A stretch of 64,000 bases of DNA from positions 434,001 to 498,000 of the forward strand of contig NZ_CP006965.1 of assembly GCF_000517445.1 (NCBI RefSeq), in the 5' to 3' direction. Source of the DNA: Thermococcus paralvinellae (GTDB lineage: Archaea > Methanobacteriota_B > Thermococci > Thermococcales > Thermococcaceae). This document shows, in pieces, positions 53,998-64,000 of the stretch. A program made the position numbers and the translations under genes. The notes under the pieces were generated by a model. The model did not search any database, had not been told where the DNA came from, and worked only from the letters and a program-made list of their open reading frames with translations. Each line of letters begins with the position of its first letter. Position 1 is the first letter of the stretch.

Positions 53998-54148
53998 AAA
54001 AATCACTAAAGGTTTTTAGGTTTTTATTGTTTATTGTATAAAGATTTGGGAAGTTTCAATGAAAGATTCTAACATTAAAAAGCTTTGAACCTTTCAGAGG
54101 CTTTAAGAAAGAAAATAGAAGGAAGTAAAAGCATTGAGGTGTCACGGA

Positions 54149-55018
54149 ATGAATAGAATAGAGAGAGCTGTACTCGATGTCCTCAAAAAAGTGAGTGAGC
54201 ACAGAGGACTGTATGAGAGAAATGAAGAAGCTGTAAAACAGCATTTAATTGGAGAAATATTCCAAGCCCTTGGCTGGGAATGGGATAATCCAAAAGAAGT
54301 ACGTCCTGAGGAAAGGACTGAAGAGGGAAGGGCAGATTACGCGTTAATCCTTAATGACAGAGTTGTTGCATTTGTTGAAGCTAAAAATCTAAGCGTAAAT
54401 GTTCTTAAAAAGGACAAACCATTGAGACAGCTCGGGAGATACTGCTTCAATCATGGGGTTAAGTATGGGATCTTAACAAATGGGATATTATGGGTGGTCA
54501 TTAAAGCTTTTGAGGAAGGTTCTCGCTTAGAGGACAGGATTATTTTAAGTGTGGATGTGGAAAATGAGCCAATTGAGAGAACAGTCCTTAAATTAAGCCT
54601 TTTGTCAAAAAGTAAAATAGAAAAACTTGAAAGGTTTACAACCCTCTTAAGAGCTTTAGAATTCAGCTTTGATGAGCTTAAAAAAGAGGGAATCAGCGAG
54701 AGAAAGCTGATAGAGTTTTTAACAGCCTCAAAGAAGAGGTTGCTTACGTTGGATAAAATAAAAGGGAACGAGTTCCCAAAGGCCCTTTATGTGTATGATG
54801 ATGGCTGGAAAATGGTTCCTCTTGTAGAAAGAAGCATTAAAGGAGTCTTGCTGTCTCTTCTTCTCTACCTTAGTGAAAGAAGTGAAGGAGAAGAAAAGGC
54901 TCAAATCAAAAAGGCTTATGCATATCTCAAAGAGATCCCAATTGATACGGAAAAGATTCTAAGGCTTCTGCGTGAGATAGAGAGAGATAAAGGGATAAGA
55001 GTTGGAATCGAGATTTAA
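54149..55018 (+). CDS. Stand-alone PD-(D/E)XK nuclease-like protein (HsdR N-terminal type)
   Basis: Resembles the N-terminal endonuclease domain of type I restriction HsdR (HSDR_N). The active-site pattern is EEGRADYALIL...VVAFVEAKNL with the Asp and the Glu-x-Lys, then QLGRYCFNHGVKYGILTNGILWVV. The C-terminal half (residues about 150-289) is helical with no helicase motifs, so this is not a full HsdR. ATG 54149 follows GAGGTG; an upstream codon at 54134 is less likely. There are no hsdM/hsdS genes nearby. It could be a defence or DNA-processing nuclease, and its target is unknown. Confidence 0.78.
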   Translation: MNRIERAVLDVLKKVSEHRGLYERNEEAVKQHLIGEIFQALGWEWDNPKEVRPEERTEEGRADYALILNDRVVAFVEAKNLSVNVLKKDKPLRQLGRYCFNHGVKYGILTNGILWVVIKAFEEGSRLEDRIILSVDVENEPIERTVLKLSLLSKSKIEKLERFTTLLRALEFSFDELKKEGISERKLIEFLTASKKRLLTLDKIKGNEFPKALYVYDDGWKMVPLVERSIKGVLLSLLLYLSERSEGEEKAQIKKAYAYLKEIPIDTEKILRLLREIERDKGIRVGIEI

Positions 55019-55803
55019 TTCTTCCAAGGAACCTCAGTTTTGATCTTCCAAATGCCTAAAAGCTTTCTTGAGCCCCATGTTGCCTGGATTTCAAAGGCAA
55101 CAATTATATCCTCATAGATGTCAATTAAATTGAATGAATTTCCAAAGGGATTTCTATGTAGCTCCCAGCTTATTGAACCAGCGTTAATTACTGGGGTTCT
55201 TTCAATCCTAACTCCAAATGCATTACCGCCGTGTCCTGTCATTACAAGCTCTGTTCTTTCTTCAGTGAGTATCTTCAAAACATTACCGGCATCCTCTAGA
55301 AATCCAAGTTCTCTACTTCTTGGAATCGGCACTGGGTTGTGGTGCATTACAACAGCTGTGAATTTCTCTTTGTATTCTTCAAGCATTGACCTCAGAATTT
55401 TTTGACCAATTCTACCAACAACACCTATAGGTGTCTCGTATTGAGCAGTTAGTATGGGAATAAAAACGAAGTCTCCAATTTCCTTAACCTCAGGCTCTCC
55501 AAAGTACTCCTTAAACAAATCATATCCGAGATACGTTATGTCATTATGGCCCGGAACTATGATTTTTTCTGCCTTAAGCTTTGCATAGTAATCTGCTGCC
55601 ATCTCGTAGTACCTCTCAATTCCTACATCCACAATGTCGCTGCAGTGGACTACCAAATCAGGCCTATACTTCTCGTTTATTGCCTTTATTGCATTCTCAA
55701 GAACACGTTTCCTGAAGTATATTCTATCGGAAACATTGCTCTCACTCATCTGGATTATCCTCAGGAGATGCTTTCCTTTTGGAATGAAAATCTTGGGCTT
55801 CAC
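55015..55803 (-). CDS. Degenerate metallophosphoesterase paralogue
   Basis: 262 residues clearly related to the gene immediately upstream, yet most metal ligands are altered. Where the paralogue has SDTH this has SESN; GD is SD; GNHD reads GHND (IVPGHNDITYLGYDLF versus AIPGNHDARNVGYGLF); GHKH reads GHGG. The motif-IV-like region reads HHNPVP where the paralogue has HHHLVP. It therefore probably binds metal differently or has lost phosphoesterase activity and acts as a partner. The start overlaps the upstream gene by four bases. Confidence 0.8.
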   Translation of the reverse strand: MKPKIFIPKGKHLLRIIQMSESNVSDRIYFRKRVLENAIKAINEKYRPDLVVHCSDIVDVGIERYYEMAADYYAKLKAEKIIVPGHNDITYLGYDLFKEYFGEPEVKEIGDFVFIPILTAQYETPIGVVGRIGQKILRSMLEEYKEKFTAVVMHHNPVPIPRSRELGFLEDAGNVLKILTEERTELVMTGHGGNAFGVRIERTPVINAGSISWELHRNPFGNSFNLIDIYEDIIVAFEIQATWGSRKLLGIWKIKTEVPWKN

Positions 55804-56531
55804 AGATTTGTAGCTTTTTTCAACTCATCCCCAGTCACTCTTCTTATGGTTACATCAATTTGCTCATCATCATTTAGTTTGATTATGTTATAGCTGTTCA
55901 CGTCGCCTTTCCTTGTCTTTCTGCATGATGTACAGCCAGCATTCACAACGACCAAATCCTCAATATTGTAAACATTTGGAACGTGTTTGTGTCCACAAAG
56001 ATACAGATTAACTTCATGCCTTAACAGCAAATCTAAAACATCTCCAGCATTGAATAAGACGTTCCTCTCCCTTCCCGTGTCTGGAAGAGGGACAAGATGA
56101 TGATGAGCGGCTACAATTTTGAATCTCTTATGTGAATACTCCTCTAGCTTTTCCTTCAGCCAGCGAAACTTGTAGCCGCCGATTCTTCCATCACTTAAAT
56201 CTGGTATTGTGGAATCAACCCAGATTATTACAAGATCATCTCGTTCATAAACTCCGTACAAAGGACCAATGTATCTCTCAAACAGCCCATATCCAACATT
56301 TCGAGCATCATGATTCCCAGGAATGGCTATAAGGGGTTTCTCTATCTTCCCAATCAGATAGCTGGCATGTTCGTATTCTTCTTTGAGCCCTTGATCTGTC
56401 ACATCGCCAGTATGAACTACCAAGTCGAAATTGCTCTGATTTATCTCATTTACTATTAAGTCATAGGCGTAGGATTTGAATGCTGATTCTTGGGTTATGT
56501 GCGTATCACTTATGTGGGCTATTTTAATCAT
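55800..56531 (-). CDS. Metallophosphoesterase (calcineurin-like)
   Basis: Binuclear metallophosphoesterase of the cyclic-nucleotide phosphodiesterase/Icc type. All motifs are intact: HISDTHIT (Asp9, His11), VVHTGDVTDQG, IPGNHDARN, AAHHHLVPLP and LCGHKHVPNVY. It has 243 residues. It starts seven bases after the end of the frameshifted DUF917 gene and overlaps the degenerate paralogue downstream, so it may be in the sugar operon. The substrate is unknown. Confidence 0.88.
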   Translation of the reverse strand: MIKIAHISDTHITQESAFKSYAYDLIVNEINQSNFDLVVHTGDVTDQGLKEEYEHASYLIGKIEKPLIAIPGNHDARNVGYGLFERYIGPLYGVYERDDLVIIWVDSTIPDLSDGRIGGYKFRWLKEKLEEYSHKRFKIVAAHHHLVPLPDTGRERNVLFNAGDVLDLLLRHEVNLYLCGHKHVPNVYNIEDLVVVNAGCTSCRKTRKGDVNSYNIIKLNDDEQIDVTIRRVTGDELKKATNL

Positions 56532-56537
56532 TAAACC

Positions 56538-57442
56538 TCACTCCGTTGATATCGACGTTTCAAGTTTTCTTCTTGTAGCTTCAAGTAAATCACTTAATGT
56601 GAAAATCCCAACTATTTTTCCGTTCCTCCATGAAGCTATGTTCTCATTTTTAAATAAAATTCTATAACTTGAAGCTCAAACTCACCGATTGTGAACCCAC
56701 TTCCCTCTCTTCTTTCCATGTATACACATTCCCCCTTAAATAAAAGGAATCCTCCTAGTTCTAAGAGTGATAAAACCCAATTTTTGTCCTCTTCTTTTGC
56801 TTTTCTCACACTTTTTCCAATATCCATAGCAAGGCTGATTGCATTTCTTATTATGGTCCTTTTGAATATTTTTCCTCTAATTGGGTGTGAGGTTACGCCG
56901 ACATTTGCTCCTGTAACTTTAACTATGCTCCTTACAAGTTTTTCGGCATGCAAATCATCTCTAGTTCTTGAAAATATTATTTTGTCCTCATATGCTGTAA
57001 CAACAGAGAAGGGGCACATATTATAGCCACGTATGTAATAAACTGAGTGATGTAGCTCTGGAACCGCTCTCCCTGCCATGTCAGCATCTATAAGTGGCAA
57101 TCCAAGTTCTGCTGCTGTTGTCAGTGCAGCTGCAGTGTTATGACCACCCATTTCTGTTGAAACAACTCCAAAAAATTTCTCTCCAATAAACTCTTCTAAC
57201 AATATAAATGATTTAACTGCTAAGTTGTCTTTGGAATTTCCACCAAGAGAGCCAACGTAATAGGGACTTGCAACTATTTTATCATTAGGAACGTCATCAA
57301 CATCAACGAGTCTAAATTTTCTACCTTTCTTCAATTCTCTTTTTATTAACTTCCAGCCCTCTTCTAAGCTACCCCCACCCCCACAGCCAAGAATCGTCGC
57401 CCCAACAAGAATATCCATGAGGTCTTCTTCTCTGAGCTTCAT
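56538..57442 (-). pseudogene. DUF917-family gene with frameshift and short C-terminus
   Basis: The first 268 residues match DUF917 (LVGATILGCGGGGSLEEGW, then VVSTEMGGHNTAAAL and LPLIDADMAGRAVPELHHS). The frame stops at TAG after EFYLKMRT, but the -1 frame carries on with NENIASWRNGKIVGIFTLSDLLEA, the family's NEN and PDLI-like region, to a TGA at 56538. The shift falls on an A5 run (T-run 56647-56651 on plus) that overlaps a T TTA AAA slippery heptamer. Even joined, the product (about 301 residues) lacks some 50 C-terminal residues. It is either a pseudogene, a sequencing error or recoded. Confidence 0.78.
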
Positions 57443-57467
57443 TTTTCTCCCTCAAAGTAAAAATTAA

Positions 57468-58589
57468 TCAAAGGATAACCTTCTTTGTATGTTTGTCGAA
57501 AAAGTGTGCCTGCTTTAAGTCAAAACCTACTTCTATCTCTTCTCCTTCCTTAACTTTCGAATCTTTATGGAACTTTGCAACAAATTTAATGTTGCCCACG
57601 TTTAAATGGACGATTAGTTCACTTCCTAATGGTTCAACAACATCAACCTTTGCTTTGACTCCTGGATAATCTCCTTTTGTAAGTGAGATATCATAAATAT
57701 CTTCGGGCCTTATTCCGAAAATAACTTCTTTTCCTGCATATCCAAGCTCTCTTAGAGCTTCGCTAATGTCGGCTGGAAGTGTTATTCTGAGGTCTCCTGC
57801 ATCTAGCCATAAGTTGCCCTCAGCGTCTTCCAAGAGTGAAGCCTCGATGAAGTTCATTGGAGGGGAGCCTATAAATCCAGCCACGAACATGTTTGCTGGC
57901 TCACGGTAAACTTCTTCGGGAGTACCAACTTGTTGTAAGACTCCGTTCCTTAGAACAGCTATTCTATCACCCATTGTCATTGCTTCAACCTGATCGTGAG
58001 TTACATAAACAGTCGTGATTCCCAATTGTTTTTGAAGCTTCTTAAGCTCAGCACGCATTCTAACTCTGAGCTTTGCATCCAAGTTGCTCAACGGCTCATC
58101 CATGAGGAACGCCTTGGGCCTTCTTACTATCGCCCTTCCCAAAGCCACTCTCTGCCTTTGCCCACCACTGAGCTCCCTTGGCTTTCTGTTTAAAAGGTGG
58201 GAAATGCCAAGCATCTCAGCAACTTCTTTGACTCTCTTGTCGATTTCATTCTTTGGTAGTTTTTTGAGCTCCAAAGGGAAAGCGAGGTTTTGGTATACAG
58301 TCATATGAGGATAGAGGGCATAATCTTGGAAAACCATTGCTATGTCTCTATCTTTTGGAGGAACAAAGCGATAACTTTCTGCATCTGCGACGAGATTCTC
58401 TCCGATGTATATTTTTCCTTCAGTTGGCACCTCAAGACCGGCAATCATTCTAAGCGTTGTGGTTTTCCCACAACCACTTGGGCCAAGTAAGGTCATGAAT
58501 TCGCCATCTTTTATGTGCAGATTTAGATTTTTAACAGCCTCTACTTCGTCAAATCTCTTTGTTACGTTAATAAGCTTAATCTCAGCCAT
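57468..58589 (-). CDS. Sugar ABC transporter ATPase (MalK/UgpC type)
   Basis: Energises import through the two permeases that follow on the same strand. Walker A is GPSGCGKTTTLRMIAGL, the signature is LSGGQRQRVALGRAI, Walker B leads to DEPLSNLDAKLRVRMR, and the H-loop is VTHDQVEAM. The C-terminal 130 residues form a TOBE-type regulatory domain (FGIRPEDIYDI). It has 373 residues and is intact, unlike two other components of the system. Confidence 0.93.
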   Translation of the reverse strand: MAEIKLINVTKRFDEVEAVKNLNLHIKDGEFMTLLGPSGCGKTTTLRMIAGLEVPTEGKIYIGENLVADAESYRFVPPKDRDIAMVFQDYALYPHMTVYQNLAFPLELKKLPKNEIDKRVKEVAEMLGISHLLNRKPRELSGGQRQRVALGRAIVRRPKAFLMDEPLSNLDAKLRVRMRAELKKLQKQLGITTVYVTHDQVEAMTMGDRIAVLRNGVLQQVGTPEEVYREPANMFVAGFIGSPPMNFIEASLLEDAEGNLWLDAGDLRITLPADISEALRELGYAGKEVIFGIRPEDIYDISLTKGDYPGVKAKVDVVEPLGSELIVHLNVGNIKFVAKFHKDSKVKEGEEIEVGFDLKQAHFFDKHTKKVIL

Positions 58590-58595
58590 TGGTAA

Positions 58596-59435
58596 TCACC
58601 CCTTTATCGCTCCCAAAGTCAATCCTCCAATGATCCTCTTTTGCAAGACTAGGAAGTATATCAGCAATGGAAGCACGGCTATTGTCGAACCAGCCATTAA
58701 AGCACCCCATTCTGTATAGTATTGTCCTCTAAATAGGGCCAAACCAACTTCTATTGGGTATTTTTCCCACGAATTCAGCATTATTAATGGCCAAATGAAG
58801 GCTTTCCAGTAGGTTATAAAATTTAAAATTGCTATTGTTATCACAGCAGGCTTTGCCAATGGTAGTGCTATCTTGAGGAATATCTGAACCTCTGAAGCAC
58901 CATCTATCCTTGCTGCTTCAATTAGTGAGTCAGGTATGGTTTCCATGTACTGCTTGAACATGAATATCCAGAAAGCGGAGACACTTCCTGGGATTATCAA
59001 GGCCCAAGAAGTATCGATTAGGCCAAGCTTTGTGTTTATGACGTAAACGGGTATTATCGTGAGTTCCCACGGTATCATTAGCATTCCTAAAATTACATAA
59101 AACACAATTCTATTCCCCGGAAATCTGATTTTTGCCAATGAATAACCAGCAAGTGAACAGAGTATGAGAACACCTAAGGTTCCACCTCCAGCGATTATTA
59201 TTGTGTTGATTATCCATCTGAACACTGGTGCATAATTAAAGAGGGTTCTGTAGTTATCTAGAGTTATGCTGTGTGGTATCCAAGTTGGAGGAATTTGCCA
59301 TATTTCACCTTCAGGCTTCAAAGATGATGCAATCATCCAATAAAGGGGGAAGAATGCAGCGAGTGTAGCGAAGATTAACAAAATGTGACCAATGACTGAG
59401 AGCCAAATCACGCTCCTATCCATTTCAAGTTTCAT
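58596..59435 (-). CDS. Sugar ABC transporter permease (MalG/UgpE type)
   Basis: Inner-membrane permease with six spans. The EAA loop EAARIDGASEVQIFLKIALPLAKP contacts the ATPase. It has 279 residues, normal for this subfamily, and is intact. It begins 11 bases after the broken companion permease and ends six bases before the ATPase gene, all on the minus strand. Confidence 0.92.
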   Translation of the reverse strand: MKLEMDRSVIWLSVIGHILLIFATLAAFFPLYWMIASSLKPEGEIWQIPPTWIPHSITLDNYRTLFNYAPVFRWIINTIIIAGGGTLGVLILCSLAGYSLAKIRFPGNRIVFYVILGMLMIPWELTIIPVYVINTKLGLIDTSWALIIPGSVSAFWIFMFKQYMETIPDSLIEAARIDGASEVQIFLKIALPLAKPAVITIAILNFITYWKAFIWPLIMLNSWEKYPIEVGLALFRGQYYTEWGALMAGSTIAVLPLLIYFLVLQKRIIGGLTLGAIKG

Positions 59436-59446
59436 CCTTAATCACC

Positions 59447-60347
59447 TCAATAATAGTAGCCTTTTTCTCCAACAGCCTTCTTTTGGATTATAGCCAAAGC
59501 AAACAGCATTGCGGACATGAATACTGCCACAGCTGAAGCGTAGCCCATGTTGAAGAGTTGGAACCCCTGTTCATAGAGGTAGTACACTATTGTTGTCGTT
59601 GCTCTCATTGGTCCGCCTTCGGTAATCACATAAATTGGTGTGAACACCTGTATGGTACCAATTGTTGCGAGTATTAACACTAACAGTATAACTGGTCTCA
59701 TCAATGGTAGCATTATTCTCCTGAAAATGGTCTTGGTGTCTGCCCCATCAACCATAGCTGCTTCAAAGAATGTTTGAGGAATCCCGGCTAGTCCCGCCAA
59801 GAACAATACTGTATAGTATCCAACACTTGACCAAACTCCATAGAGTATAATTGTTGGCATTGCCCACTTAGGATCGGCGTACCATTGAGGTGGATTTGAA
59901 ATTATCTTCTCGAGAATGGCATTTACTAACCCATAAGTTGGATCAAAAATGTAGGCCCAGAGTATCATTATTGCAACGGAAGAAATAATATAAGGAGTAA
60001 TTAGCGATGTTTTGAAAAACGAGGAAAATCTTACAATTTGCATATGAATGAGGAACGCGAAAATTAATGCTAAAGTTACAGAAATTAGCGTTGTTGCAAC
60101 TCCATAATAGAATGTGTTTTTTAGGGCTATCCAAAATTCTGGGTCAGTAAACATGTTGTAATAGTTCTTAAGTCCAATAAACTCCGGCATCGTCATTCCA
60201 TTCCAATCCGTAAAACTCGCAAAAACTGACCAAAATGCCGGGATTATATAATAAAACAGTAAATATTATCATCGCAGGGAGAACAAAGATGTATCCCCAT
60301 TTATTCTCCTTCATTTCAACCTTTAGTATTTTCCAATTTATTTCCAT
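59447..60347 (-). pseudogene. Sugar ABC transporter permease (MalF/UgpA type), frameshifted
   Basis: Two overlapping reading frames make one permease. The N-terminal frame from ATG 60347 (GGGGTGG upstream) gives EMKENKWGYIFVLPAMIIFTVLLY; then it runs into PGILVSFCEF and stops at 60168. The frame shifted by one reads PAFWSVFASFTDWNGM and then MPEFIGLKNYYNMFTDPEFWIALKNTF through the EAA loop FEAAMVDGADTKTIFRRIMLPLMRP. The change occurs at about 60241-60262. One inserted or two deleted bases explain it. Confidence 0.82.
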
Positions 60348-60383
60348 TTGAGCCACCCCAAAAAGAAATAAGAGAGGAAAAAA

Positions 60384-61735
60384 TCACTTCTTAGCTTTCT
60401 CAGTCCACCACTTGTCCACAGCCTTCTGGGCTTCTTCTTGAGCCTTCTTGAGAGCCTCGTCCAAGCTCTTCTTTCCAAGGTAGTATGCTTCAAGCTCTGG
60501 CTTGACCTTACCCCAAACTCCAGCAAATGACGCCACTGGTGGATACATCTTTCCGTACTTTGCGGATTCTGCAAAGATCTTCATGTATGGATCGTCACCA
60601 AATGGATTCTTGACTGAGTATCTTGATGGGAAGAATCTACTTACTTTACACCACTTTTCTTGAACCTCTGGGCTTACCATGTACTTGATGAATAACCATG
60701 CTTCCTCCGGATGCTTTGTGTTCTTGAATATCACCAGGCTGTCAGCACCTGCGAAGACGTATTTTCCAGCTGGTCCTTCTAAGGGTTCACTGACAATGAA
60801 GTTAATCTTTGTGTTTTCCTGTAAGTCTCCAATGAACCATGGACCATCATAGACCATCAAAACTTTCCCACTCTTGAACAGTCCCTCAACCTGCAGTCCT
60901 TTCCATGTTGGGCATGCTTTAGGAGCATATCCCTTGTCAATAAAGCTCTTGAGTAATCCAATTGCTTTCTTCCACTCTGGTGTGTCAATTGTTGCCTTTC
61001 TCTGATCTGGTGATACTAAATCACCGCCAGCCTGCCAGACCCATGGAAGCTGGTAGGAACTCCACTGTCCACCAAATGCGAAACAATATTCTTGTCCTCC
61101 GCTCTTTTCTTTAATGAGTTCACACACCTTCAAGAACTCATCCCAGGTCTTTGGAACTTCCTTAATGCCATATTTATCCATTAGGTCTTTGTTCCAGAAG
61201 GGTATTCTAACAGCAGTGAACCATGGGATGTTGTACTGCTTTCCATCGATTGGATTTATACCAGCCTTCCAAGGACCTTCATAGAAGTCTTTAACAAAGG
61301 CATCTCCCTCTTTCTTTATGAAGTCATCCAATGGCAGTAGGACTCCTTCAATTGCGAAGTTGTTTGGCAGTCCTAACTCGGCAACATCTGGGCCCTTTCC
61401 AGCTGCTACAGCTGCTTTGATCTTATCGTAATATCCTTTCCATGGGTAGATTTCATATTTAACCTTAATCATGGGTATTTCTCTTCAAAGCCTTTGATTA
61501 TTTCATCCAAGAATGACTTCATATCTTGGGCAGGTAGAGACTGGGGGAACCATACAACCAATGTTACAGGCTCTTTTTTAGCTGTTGTCTCTACAGTTTT
61601 TGTCTGAGTTGGAGTTGCAGTTTTAGTAGGTTGTGTAGAGGAAGTTGTGGTGGTTTTTTCTCCAATACAACCAGCTGTTGCTACTACTAATATTCCAAGC
61701 ACAAGAGCAAGAAGTTTCATATAACCCCTCTTCAC
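60384..61735 (-). pseudogene. Solute-binding lipoprotein of the sugar ABC transporter, frameshifted
   Basis: Lipoprotein signal peptide with lipobox ATAGC (VLGILVVATAGCIG), a Thr-rich linker, then the mature fold starting VTLVVWFPQSLP. The first frame ends ...GFEEKYP-TGA at 61469; the second frame starts in the same CCATGA and continues IKVKYEIYPWKGYYDKIKAA through a full family-1 solute-binding protein. One lost base at 61469-61472 accounts for it. The stop/start overlap could in principle allow coupled synthesis of two pieces, but a split in the first lobe is unlikely to be functional. GTG 61735 after AGGAGGG is the best start. Confidence 0.85.
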
Positions 61736-61778
61736 TATCATCCCTCCTAAGGGGGATTCAAAAATTATAAAGTTTTTC

Positions 61779-61790
61779 AGGATATATAAA
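61779..61790 (-). promoter_or_regulatory. TATA box of the ABC transporter operon
   Basis: Minus strand TTTATATATCC, about 45-55 bases before the lipoprotein start; the adjacent AsnC-type regulator gene lies just upstream. Confidence 0.45.
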
Positions 61791-61943
61791 ATTTTTGTTA
61801 AAAATGATTATATTTATTTAAAATAGTTGAATTTCAAATTAAAATTTAGTCACGAAGTCTCTTAAGATATGTCCAATAATTCGCATTATTTTGTTATTTA
61901 GAGTTTGACAAGAGGTGGAATAATTAAAAGAAAAGAGTCGTGA

Positions 61944-62489
61944 CTATTTTGATTGTGAGTTCACGAGTTCTGAGAATATTTTTGGCGTATAAACATTTGC
62001 AAGGATTGTGTAGTGATCAACGACATTGCTTTCAATCATGAACTCCTCGATTTTCTCTTTTAATGTTCTAAAGTCCTTCTCAAAGAACCTGAACAGAAAA
62101 TCATACTCACCTATGTATTCACTAACTTCGTATATCCTAGGCTCTTCCAAGGCTTTTGTTATAAAATCCTTTACTGCCTCGGCAGAACAGCCTGGTTTGA
62201 GCTTAATTAGAACATCTGCCGATGCTAGCTTTAATTTGTCGAATACTAAGAATCCCCTGACCCTTATTATGCCTTTTTCTTCTAGTGTTAATCTCCTTCT
62301 TCTCGCAGTTGGCACTGAGACATTAGCTATCTTTGCTAGATCTGTATCAGAGATTCTTCCGTCATCTCTCAAAGCCAACCAAATTAGAATATCAATTTCG
62401 TCAAGATAGTCCTTGAGAATCTCTTTGAAAAATTCAAGTTCTTTCTTATATCTTGCTTCATTTTTGTTTACCAAATTTTTCACCTCCAT
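61944..62489 (-). CDS. Lrp/AsnC-family transcription regulator
   Basis: N-terminal HTH (DEIDILIWLALRDDGRISDTDLAKIANVSVPTARRRRLTLEEKGII) then a RAM-like sensor domain (ADVLIKLKPGCSAEAVKDFI ... ISEYIGEYDFLF-like). An extra N-terminal stretch of about 25 residues precedes the usual start. It lies between the sugar oxidoreductase and the ABC operon on the same strand, so it likely controls them. ATG 62489 is open; GGAGGTG inside the frame would instead favour TTG 62474. It is intact. Confidence 0.85.
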   Translation of the reverse strand: MEVKNLVNKNEARYKKELEFFKEILKDYLDEIDILIWLALRDDGRISDTDLAKIANVSVPTARRRRLTLEEKGIIRVRGFLVFDKLKLASADVLIKLKPGCSAEAVKDFITKALEEPRIYEVSEYIGEYDFLFRFFEKDFRTLKEKIEEFMIESNVVDHYTILANVYTPKIFSELVNSQSK

Positions 62490-62595
62490 GAGAATAATTT
62501 GGATGTTTTTAGCACTCTGGTTATCAAATTTTAAACTATTTGGGGTTTAAAAATCTATTGGCAATTTGTCAGCAAAAATTGAAAAAGTTGAGAGA

Positions 62596-63553
62596 TTAAA
62601 TTGTTATTTGTCTATCGTTCTTTGAGGCTCTATACAATGCACTTACGGCCTTATGGACTTTCAGACCATCAACTTCATTGACAACCGGCTTTGTCCCATT
62701 TTCAATACATTCGATAAAATGCTTCAACTGTCTCAGATACATTTCTTCAACGGGTTCGCTAAAGTTGCCCTCTTCAAGGATTTGCATCTCTCTCTTTGAA
62801 ATTCTGTAATTTCCCCCAAGATACCCATCAACCGTGACAGTTCCATTGGTAGCTTGAAGTCCCCATTTTCTCCATCTATGTTGAGCAGTCCATGTTTGCA
62901 TTAACGTTGAAACGGCTCCATTCTTGTGAACAAACGTTGCTACGGCGTTGTCCTCTATTGTGGCATCCTCTTCAAGAGTCCAGCATCTTCCATAGACCTT
63001 CTTTATGTCTCCAGCGTACCAGAGGAAATAATAAATTACATGCACCGCGTTTTCATTTATCATTCCACCACTTTTTCCTTTATCCTTTATCCATTCATTT
63101 CTGGGTGTTCTTCCTAAAGCTACATGCCACTGGAAGAGAATATCCCCAAGTTCCTTGTCTAGATAATCCTTTATCTTCATGAAAAGTCCATGGAATCTAA
63201 GGCTGAAGGCCACCATGAGTTTATTTGTTCCCTTGGCTTTTCTGTAGATTGCTCTTGCGTCATAGATATCAGCACCCATGAGCTTTTCAAGGAGAACGTG
63301 GAATCCGTTTCTTAAGGCATATAGAGCTTGCTCCCTGTGTAGATGGGGGTGTTGCGATTATTACTCCGTCTGGGCTCTCATTTTCAAGCATTTTTTTATA
63401 GTTTGTATAAACTGGAACTTTGTATTCTGCTTTCACTTTTTCAAGGATTTCTGGCTTAATATCACAAACCCCTGCTATTTCCACATTTGCCATTTTCATG
63501 ACTTTCAAATGCAACTGCCCCATGCTTCCGGCGCCGATGAGAGCAATTCTCAT
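62596..63553 (-). pseudogene. Gfo/Idh/MocA-family oxidoreductase, frameshifted
   Basis: The N-terminal frame from ATG 63553 has the Rossmann motif IALIGAGSMGQLHLK and DGVIIATPP, then derails. The correct continuation HLHREQALYALRNGFHVLLEK lies in another frame that leads straight into the second piece (GADIYDARAIYRKAKGTNKLMVAFSLRFH...). The shift maps to a five-base G-run on the plus strand at 63345-63349. The catalytic EK motif is kept (VLLEKLMG). Joined, it would be a normal oxidoreductase of about 319 residues acting on a sugar or inositol-like substrate. Gap 62490-62595 separates it from the regulator. Confidence 0.85.
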
Positions 63554-63558
63554 TCATA

Positions 63559-64000
63559 TCACCCGAATATCTTTTTTAGAGAGGTGAATGAGTCTTCAGC
63601 GGCTTTAACTGGGTCTGCCAAGTAGGGCGGCACTTCTGGAAGGATGTATCCGTCATATTTCACTTCTTCAAGAGCTTTTCTAACTTCACTCCAGTTAACG
63701 CTTCCGCTGAGAGGAATTCCAAACTTGAGTTCGACTAAGTTGAAGTCCTTAACATGAACCTGAAGTATCTTGTCTTTGAGAACTCTTATCCAGTGCTCTG
63801 GCAGTGAGTGAGGTATTGTGTTGCCTACATCAAAATAAGCCCCAACATTCTCACAGTTTATTTCGTCTAAGAGTTGCTTGAACTCCAATGGTCCTGCAAA
63901 AACCCTGTTCCACACATTCTCCAGTCCTATCTTAACTCCACATTCTTCTGCAATTTTTGAAGCTTTCTTTACGAAGTCTGATGCCTTTTCAAAGTGCTTT
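63559..64000 (-). CDS. Sugar-phosphate isomerase/epimerase-like TIM barrel, 5' part outside window
   Basis: The frame is open to the window edge at 64000, so the N-terminus is missing. Visible parts match xylose-isomerase-like TIM barrels (IolE/Hyi/tagatose epimerase group): GVKIGLENVWNR, NVGAYFDVGNTI, LQVHVKDFN and YILPEVPPYLADP, with metal-ligand Glu, Asp, His and Glu. It ends six bases before the oxidoreductase start, so they form an operon. An inositol- or keto-sugar-converting role together with the oxidoreductase is likely but not specific. Confidence 0.85.
   Translation of the reverse strand, partial: KHFEKASDFVKKASKIAEECGVKIGLENVWNRVFAGPLEFKQLLDEINCENVGAYFDVGNTIPHSLPEHWIRVLKDKILQVHVKDFNLVELKFGIPLSGSVNWSEVRKALEEVKYDGYILPEVPPYLADPVKAAEDSFTSLKKIFG

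Follow-up and report, generated by a model that had tools for sequence, protein, structure and literature searches.

Taken jointly, our results make it probable that the two overlapping metallophosphoesterase (MPE) reading frames of Thermococcus paralvinellae are the broken form of one two-domain protein conserved in the class Thermococci, that this protein would act in the breakdown of cyclic 2,3-diphosphoglycerate (cDPG) or 2,3-DPG, and that the copy in this strain is decaying. The locus lies in the window, by which we mean the whole stretch of DNA analysed (64,000 nucleotides), and its coding part comprises the following features.

55800 to 56531, minus strand: N-terminal canonical MPE domain (ISDTH, HTGDxTD, GNHD, HHH, GHKH), 243 amino acids, ending prematurely after a frameshift.
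55015 to 55803, minus strand: C-terminal pseudo-MPE domain (SESN, HCSDIVD, GHND, HHN, GHGG), 262 amino acids, a separate reading frame in the window.
55810 to 55821, minus strand: single-base deletion near 55815; the coding strand reads GAAAAAAGC in the window versus GAAAAAGAGC in five congeners, and the deletion splits the fused gene.

Over 1.5 kb of alignment with the five congeners, the window copy shows no internal indel other than this one-base deletion; the overlapping pair is thus a single gene whose split is private to the window genome. A sequence-only reading of this DNA had described two overlapping paralogous genes. It was right about the two reading frames, about their overlap (four bases, GTGA) and about their paralogy (the halves share about 31% identity, and neither has another clear relative in the same genome), but not about there being two genes, since other genomes hold them in one frame. 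A homology search located the C-domain in 89 of 94 family genomes, and in nearly all of these 89, as in sister families, the open frame runs to about 500 codons; in the window genome it is 269 codons long. At every one of the 76 non-window loci that were read directly, both domains lie in a single frame (one of these frames ends at a contig edge). One scan of genome contigs found no homologues outside Thermococcaceae; BLAST searches recovered distant homologues, also fused, in three sister families of the class (f2, f4 and f5). The phylum-level search spanned the same 115 genomes as the class-level search. Searching relatives for the gene pair, a check proposed with the original description, therefore found both domains to be widespread, but as one fused protein. 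Separate conserved genes, as expected of a natural two-gene enzyme/pseudoenzyme heterodimer, were seen at none of the 76 loci. The heterodimer suggested earlier does not hold in general, as the halves are covalently fused everywhere else, and could apply only to the split window copy. Literature searches returned no tandem archaeal MPE pseudoenzyme.

Both halves score above the PF00149 (Metallophos) cutoff of 21.5 bits, the N-half with 80.2 bits and the C-half with 42.1 bits. The N-half belongs to the dinuclear metallophosphoesterases of class III (GpdQ/Icc-like). The class III motifs DxH, GDxxD/N, GNHD, HH and GHxH are all found in the N-domain, sister families f2, f4 and f5 included, when SDSH in f5 and AHRH in f4 are tolerated. 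In our main alignment of 70 Thermococcaceae sequences, with f2, f4, f5 and two divergent Thermococcus genomes (G057 and G061) compared separately, SDTH, HTGD, GNHD, HHH and GHKH of the N-half are invariant (70/70), and the claim that the upstream frame carries every canonical motif is borne out. All metal and catalytic motifs are common to the N-domain and the class III enzymes GpdQ, Rv0805 and CpdA (PF00149), the first two of which are its top sequence matches; unlike these enzymes, the fused MPE adds a dead C-terminal MPE domain and an operon with CBS, 2PGK and cDPGS genes. An AlphaFold2 model of the fusion, built from an alignment of six sequences, confirmed the fold (mean pLDDT 67.5, pTM 0.50, catalytic loops below 50), and the top fold match of the predicted structure is GpdQ. 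The model is of moderate quality and supports conclusions on the fold, not on how the domains pack or on the geometry of the site.

The C-half has E264 in place of the first metal-binding Asp, H329 in place of the metal-binding Asn and G436 in place of the last His, and it keeps D299, H397 and H434; each of these six residues is identical in 70/70 Thermococcaceae. Position 266, where a metal-binding His is expected, varies among N, K and S, and the catalytic His is replaced by N or S. The replacements noticed earlier in the downstream frame (SESN for SDTH, GHND for GNHD and GHGG for GHKH) are therefore real and not due to chance. The Ser for Gly in HCSDIVD is private to the window copy, HxGD being found in 69 of the 70 sequences. 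The intact GNHD of a catalytically competent class III MPE occurs in no C-half of any lineage; GHND or GHSD, GSSD, or, in the three sister families, GPRD or GARD is found instead. The proposed combination of a catalytic enzyme with a pseudoenzyme thus holds across the whole archaeal class.

It was also suggested that the downstream protein has a new metal site. We consider it improbable that the C-domain, instead of being a pseudo-domain, is catalytically competent through a new mononuclear metal site. The invariance of E264, D299, H329, H397 and H434 among the 70 Thermococcaceae keeps such a site weakly possible there, but the catalytic His position is occupied by N or S, other ligands are lost in f2, f4 and f5, and D299 and H329 are missing from the two divergent Thermococcus (loci L088 and L089), which have GSSD, GN for GD at the bridging Asp and an intact fusion. 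Since the C-half ligands are lost in sister lineages and in these two genomes, what has been conserved is not metal binding. The C-domain of these two Thermococcus appears to show further decay of the pseudo-site under an unbroken fusion.

Maximum-likelihood analysis separates the N-halves from the C-halves as two clades (support 100/100), each with f4 as its first branch, which indicates that the duplication and fusion are older than the radiation of the class. Judged from these sequences, the protein is an ancient enzyme–pseudoenzyme fusion whose halves are sister clades that split before the Thermococci diversified. The C-half originated as an old tandem duplicate of the N-half and lost the catalytic Asn-His. 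As a pseudo-domain it may now have a structural or regulatory role, probably packed on the N-half much as one subunit of a dimer packs on the other, and would supply the partner surface that dimeric relatives obtain from their second subunit. As the class diverged, the metal ligands of the pseudo-domain drifted, yet the domain itself was retained and stayed fused to its active paralogue. Inactive calcineurin-like proteins that keep the MPE fold without catalytic residues and are used as scaffolds include Vps29 and GAP50, both among the fold matches of the fused model, and the small subunits of eukaryotic DNA polymerases are also inactive calcineurin-like domains. In contrast to all of these, the dead copy described here forms one tandem chain with its own active paralogue. 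Among proteins of the metallo-beta-lactamase fold, long-form RNase Z (ELAC2) likewise combines an active and an inactive half, products of a tandem duplication, in a single chain; it differs from the fused MPE in its fold, its dead half and its substrate.

To place the fused protein in a pathway, we rely on its gene neighborhood, counted over 63 loci with flanks, and on co-occurrence. A gene for a two-CBS-domain protein lies directly upstream and is co-directional in 60/63 loci, with a gap of 4 to 24 nt by BLAST coordinates; in the remaining three, all from f4, it is on the opposite strand. The 2PGK gene is within 1 kb of the MPE gene in 55/63 loci (14 upstream and co-directional, 41 downstream and convergent), a linkage that spans four families, and is not nearby in the Pyrococcus, g2 and g6 loci. 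A cDPGS gene is near the MPE gene in 50/63 loci. The identity of 2PGK rests on a match to NF003259 above the curated NCBIfam cutoff, and that of cDPGS on matches to the PDB entries 9sxb (E=2.9e-205) and 8ork. Of 115 genomes, 95 carry MPE together with 2PGK, 16 carry neither and 4 (3 + 1) carry only one of them, and MPE and cDPGS agree in 104; these counts ignore shared ancestry, and ten of the 16 double absences belong to one family. By linkage and co-occurrence with 2PGK and cDPGS, the MPE probably belongs with the cDPG pathway, with the qualification that f2 and f4 are without cDPGS. Even at a permissive threshold, no cDPGS was detected in these two families, which keep MPE and 2PGK. Their loci (L081-L087) carry 2PGK, CBS and tandem MPE genes. 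This suggests that the enzyme may act on 2,3-DPG, instead of or in addition to cDPG, or that the link is to 2PGK only; of the pathway genes, 2PGK shows the strongest association. Two genomes, G089 and G090 (loci L093 9404-12118 and L031), carry another type of cDPGS, 43% identical to the usual one, with 8ork as its nearest solved relative; in both, apgM replaces 2PGK at the same operon position, and G089 has no 2PGK match.

Cyclic 2,3-diphosphoglycerate is a protectant against heat and pressure. The most likely role of the fused MPE, with the substrate deduced from neighborhood and co-occurrence, is in the breakdown of cDPG and/or 2,3-DPG. The synthetic route runs from 2-phosphoglycerate through 2PGK and cDPGS to cDPG (PMC10690619), and the N-half would hydrolyze the cyclic pyrophosphate of cDPG, or remove phosphate from 2,3-DPG, returning the solute to glycolysis. 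The CBS protein would sense adenine nucleotides and tie MPE activity to their status. A cDPG hydrolase activity in Methanothermobacter is membrane-bound (PMC1224877), and in M. thermautotrophicus it is inhibited by K+ and Pi (Sastry 1992 and van Alebeek 1994, as cited in PMC1224877). The fused MPE would act at the breakdown step of that pathway, although no membrane segment is evident in it, unlike the membrane-bound hydrolase of M. thermautotrophicus, which is known as an activity only. The cDPG-synthesis proteins of Thermococcales respond to high pressure (PMC7511516; PMC4890121), and cDPG itself was undetected in this order (PMC7511516). A more specific reading is that the CBS-gated fused MPE is the archaeal cDPG hydrolase, that Thermococci both synthesize and degrade cDPG, and that the window strain amounts to a natural knock-out of the entire pathway; we put it forward tentatively, at a little under even chances. 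The genes for cDPG synthesis are known and their products crystallized, but our literature searches turned up no publication that names the hydrolase gene; a class-wide enzyme/pseudoenzyme tied to the synthesis genes makes this question testable with one recombinant protein.

Less likely, but to be taken seriously, is that the protein works as a phosphodiesterase on some other compound (a cyclic nucleotide, c-di-AMP, a glycerophosphodiester or di-myo-inositol phosphate) and that its neighborhood is incidental. GpdQ and Rv0805 are the closest solved relatives, the best weak NCBIfam match is to a cAMP phosphodiesterase, and CBS domains bind adenine nucleotides, all of which would fit such a substrate. 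However, the cAMP-phosphodiesterase model (CpdA, NF008359, cutoff 225 bits) gives 76.7 bits for the N-half, far under the cutoff, and 28.4 bits for the C-half, the linkage to 2PGK is held in two gene arrangements and four families, and co-occurrence with 2PGK is nearly complete.

If the fused MPE acts in (c)DPG breakdown, the window strain has lost its pathway. Its genome is a single contig, 99.87% complete, in which 2PGK was found neither by protein search nor with the curated model, and cDPGS is likewise absent. Upstream of the MPE gene, the window holds the following.

56538 to 56639, minus strand: 3' remnant of the CBS gene, immediately upstream of the MPE gene; 31 codons, matching residues 105-135 of the intact protein at 84%.
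56636 to 57442, minus strand: S-Me-THD-like (DUF917) reading frame at the island edge, 3' truncated, 268 amino acids versus frames of 373-393 in relatives.
57468 to 63999, minus strand: strain-specific ABC sugar-transporter/oxidoreductase island; relatives have cDPGS, 2PGK or apgM, and CBS genes there.

Synteny with the nearest congener ends at about 56628, inside the CBS stub. A foreign island lies in the place where relatives have the pathway genes and most of the CBS gene; the MPE would then have lost its function and acquired the frameshift, in what is a presumed order of events. The region 56636-64000 encodes DUF917/S-Me-THD, a MalK-type ABC sugar transporter, an Lrp-type regulator, the C-terminal part of a Gfo/Idh/MocA protein and a xylose-isomerase-like TIM barrel, and several of its reading frames look broken, the solute-binding protein being split at 61.47 kb and the permease and oxidoreductase lacking their N-termini. 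A sugar-phosphate role for the MPE, as the adjacent ABC transporter and DUF917 genes might suggest, was ruled out because the island is strain-specific: its binding protein occurs in 1/94 family genomes, and relatives carry other genes there.

The window MPE gene itself has 14 private nonsynonymous and 17 synonymous changes (14/17), an excess of amino-acid change relative to 27/117 in six flanking genes of the same genome (p=0.0027) and to 22/70 pooled over five congeners (p=0.023); this comparison was picked after the locus had been seen, although relaxed selection had already been named, with the original description, as a finding that would refute it. That refuter was a downstream gene restricted to this genome and evolving under relaxed selection: its first part fails, with the domain in most family genomes, and the second is true of the window copy. 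The copy thus has both marks of a pseudogene, a disrupted frame and relaxed selection, although the indel may be a sequencing error, and it is most likely a decaying relic.

That the split is a sequencing or assembly error, the gene being intact and fused in the real strain, strikes us as unlikely. A single-base indel beside a short homopolymer is a typical error, and other split frames lie close by (the solute-binding protein, the truncated oxidoreductase and the permease). The private changes and the lost pathway partners, however, go beyond what an indel error produces. The excess of amino-acid change argues against an error as the whole explanation of the split; it is possible that a gene in real decay also carries an indel error in its sequence.

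Still less likely, in our view, is that the split is functional in the window strain, as a two-gene heterodimer, through translational coupling via GTGA, or by ribosomal or transcriptional slippage on the A6 run that restores some of the full-length protein. The frames do overlap by GTGA, a -1 slip after AAA AAA gives AGC TAC AAA TCT GTG AAG, which is the frame of the relatives, and both halves are largely open, with a pairwise dN/dS of about 0.05-0.06 against the nearest congener. Against this stand the excess of private amino-acid changes over the flanking genes, the loss of the CBS partner and the pathway, and, by inspection, an imperfect slippery heptamer at the -1 site. Programmed frameshifting as the main reading is possible but not favored, because the other genomes need none.

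With decay as the preferred reading, the gene pair is a local accident, and the main value of the locus lies in the conserved fused enzyme/pseudoenzyme, its link to a pathway and a strain in which that pathway is lost, where partner loss and MPE decay are visible together. Downstream, an HsdR_N-like gene (54134-55018) is convergent with the MPE gene; relatives of it, with other restriction genes not evident, lie near the MPE gene in 44 clustered loci.
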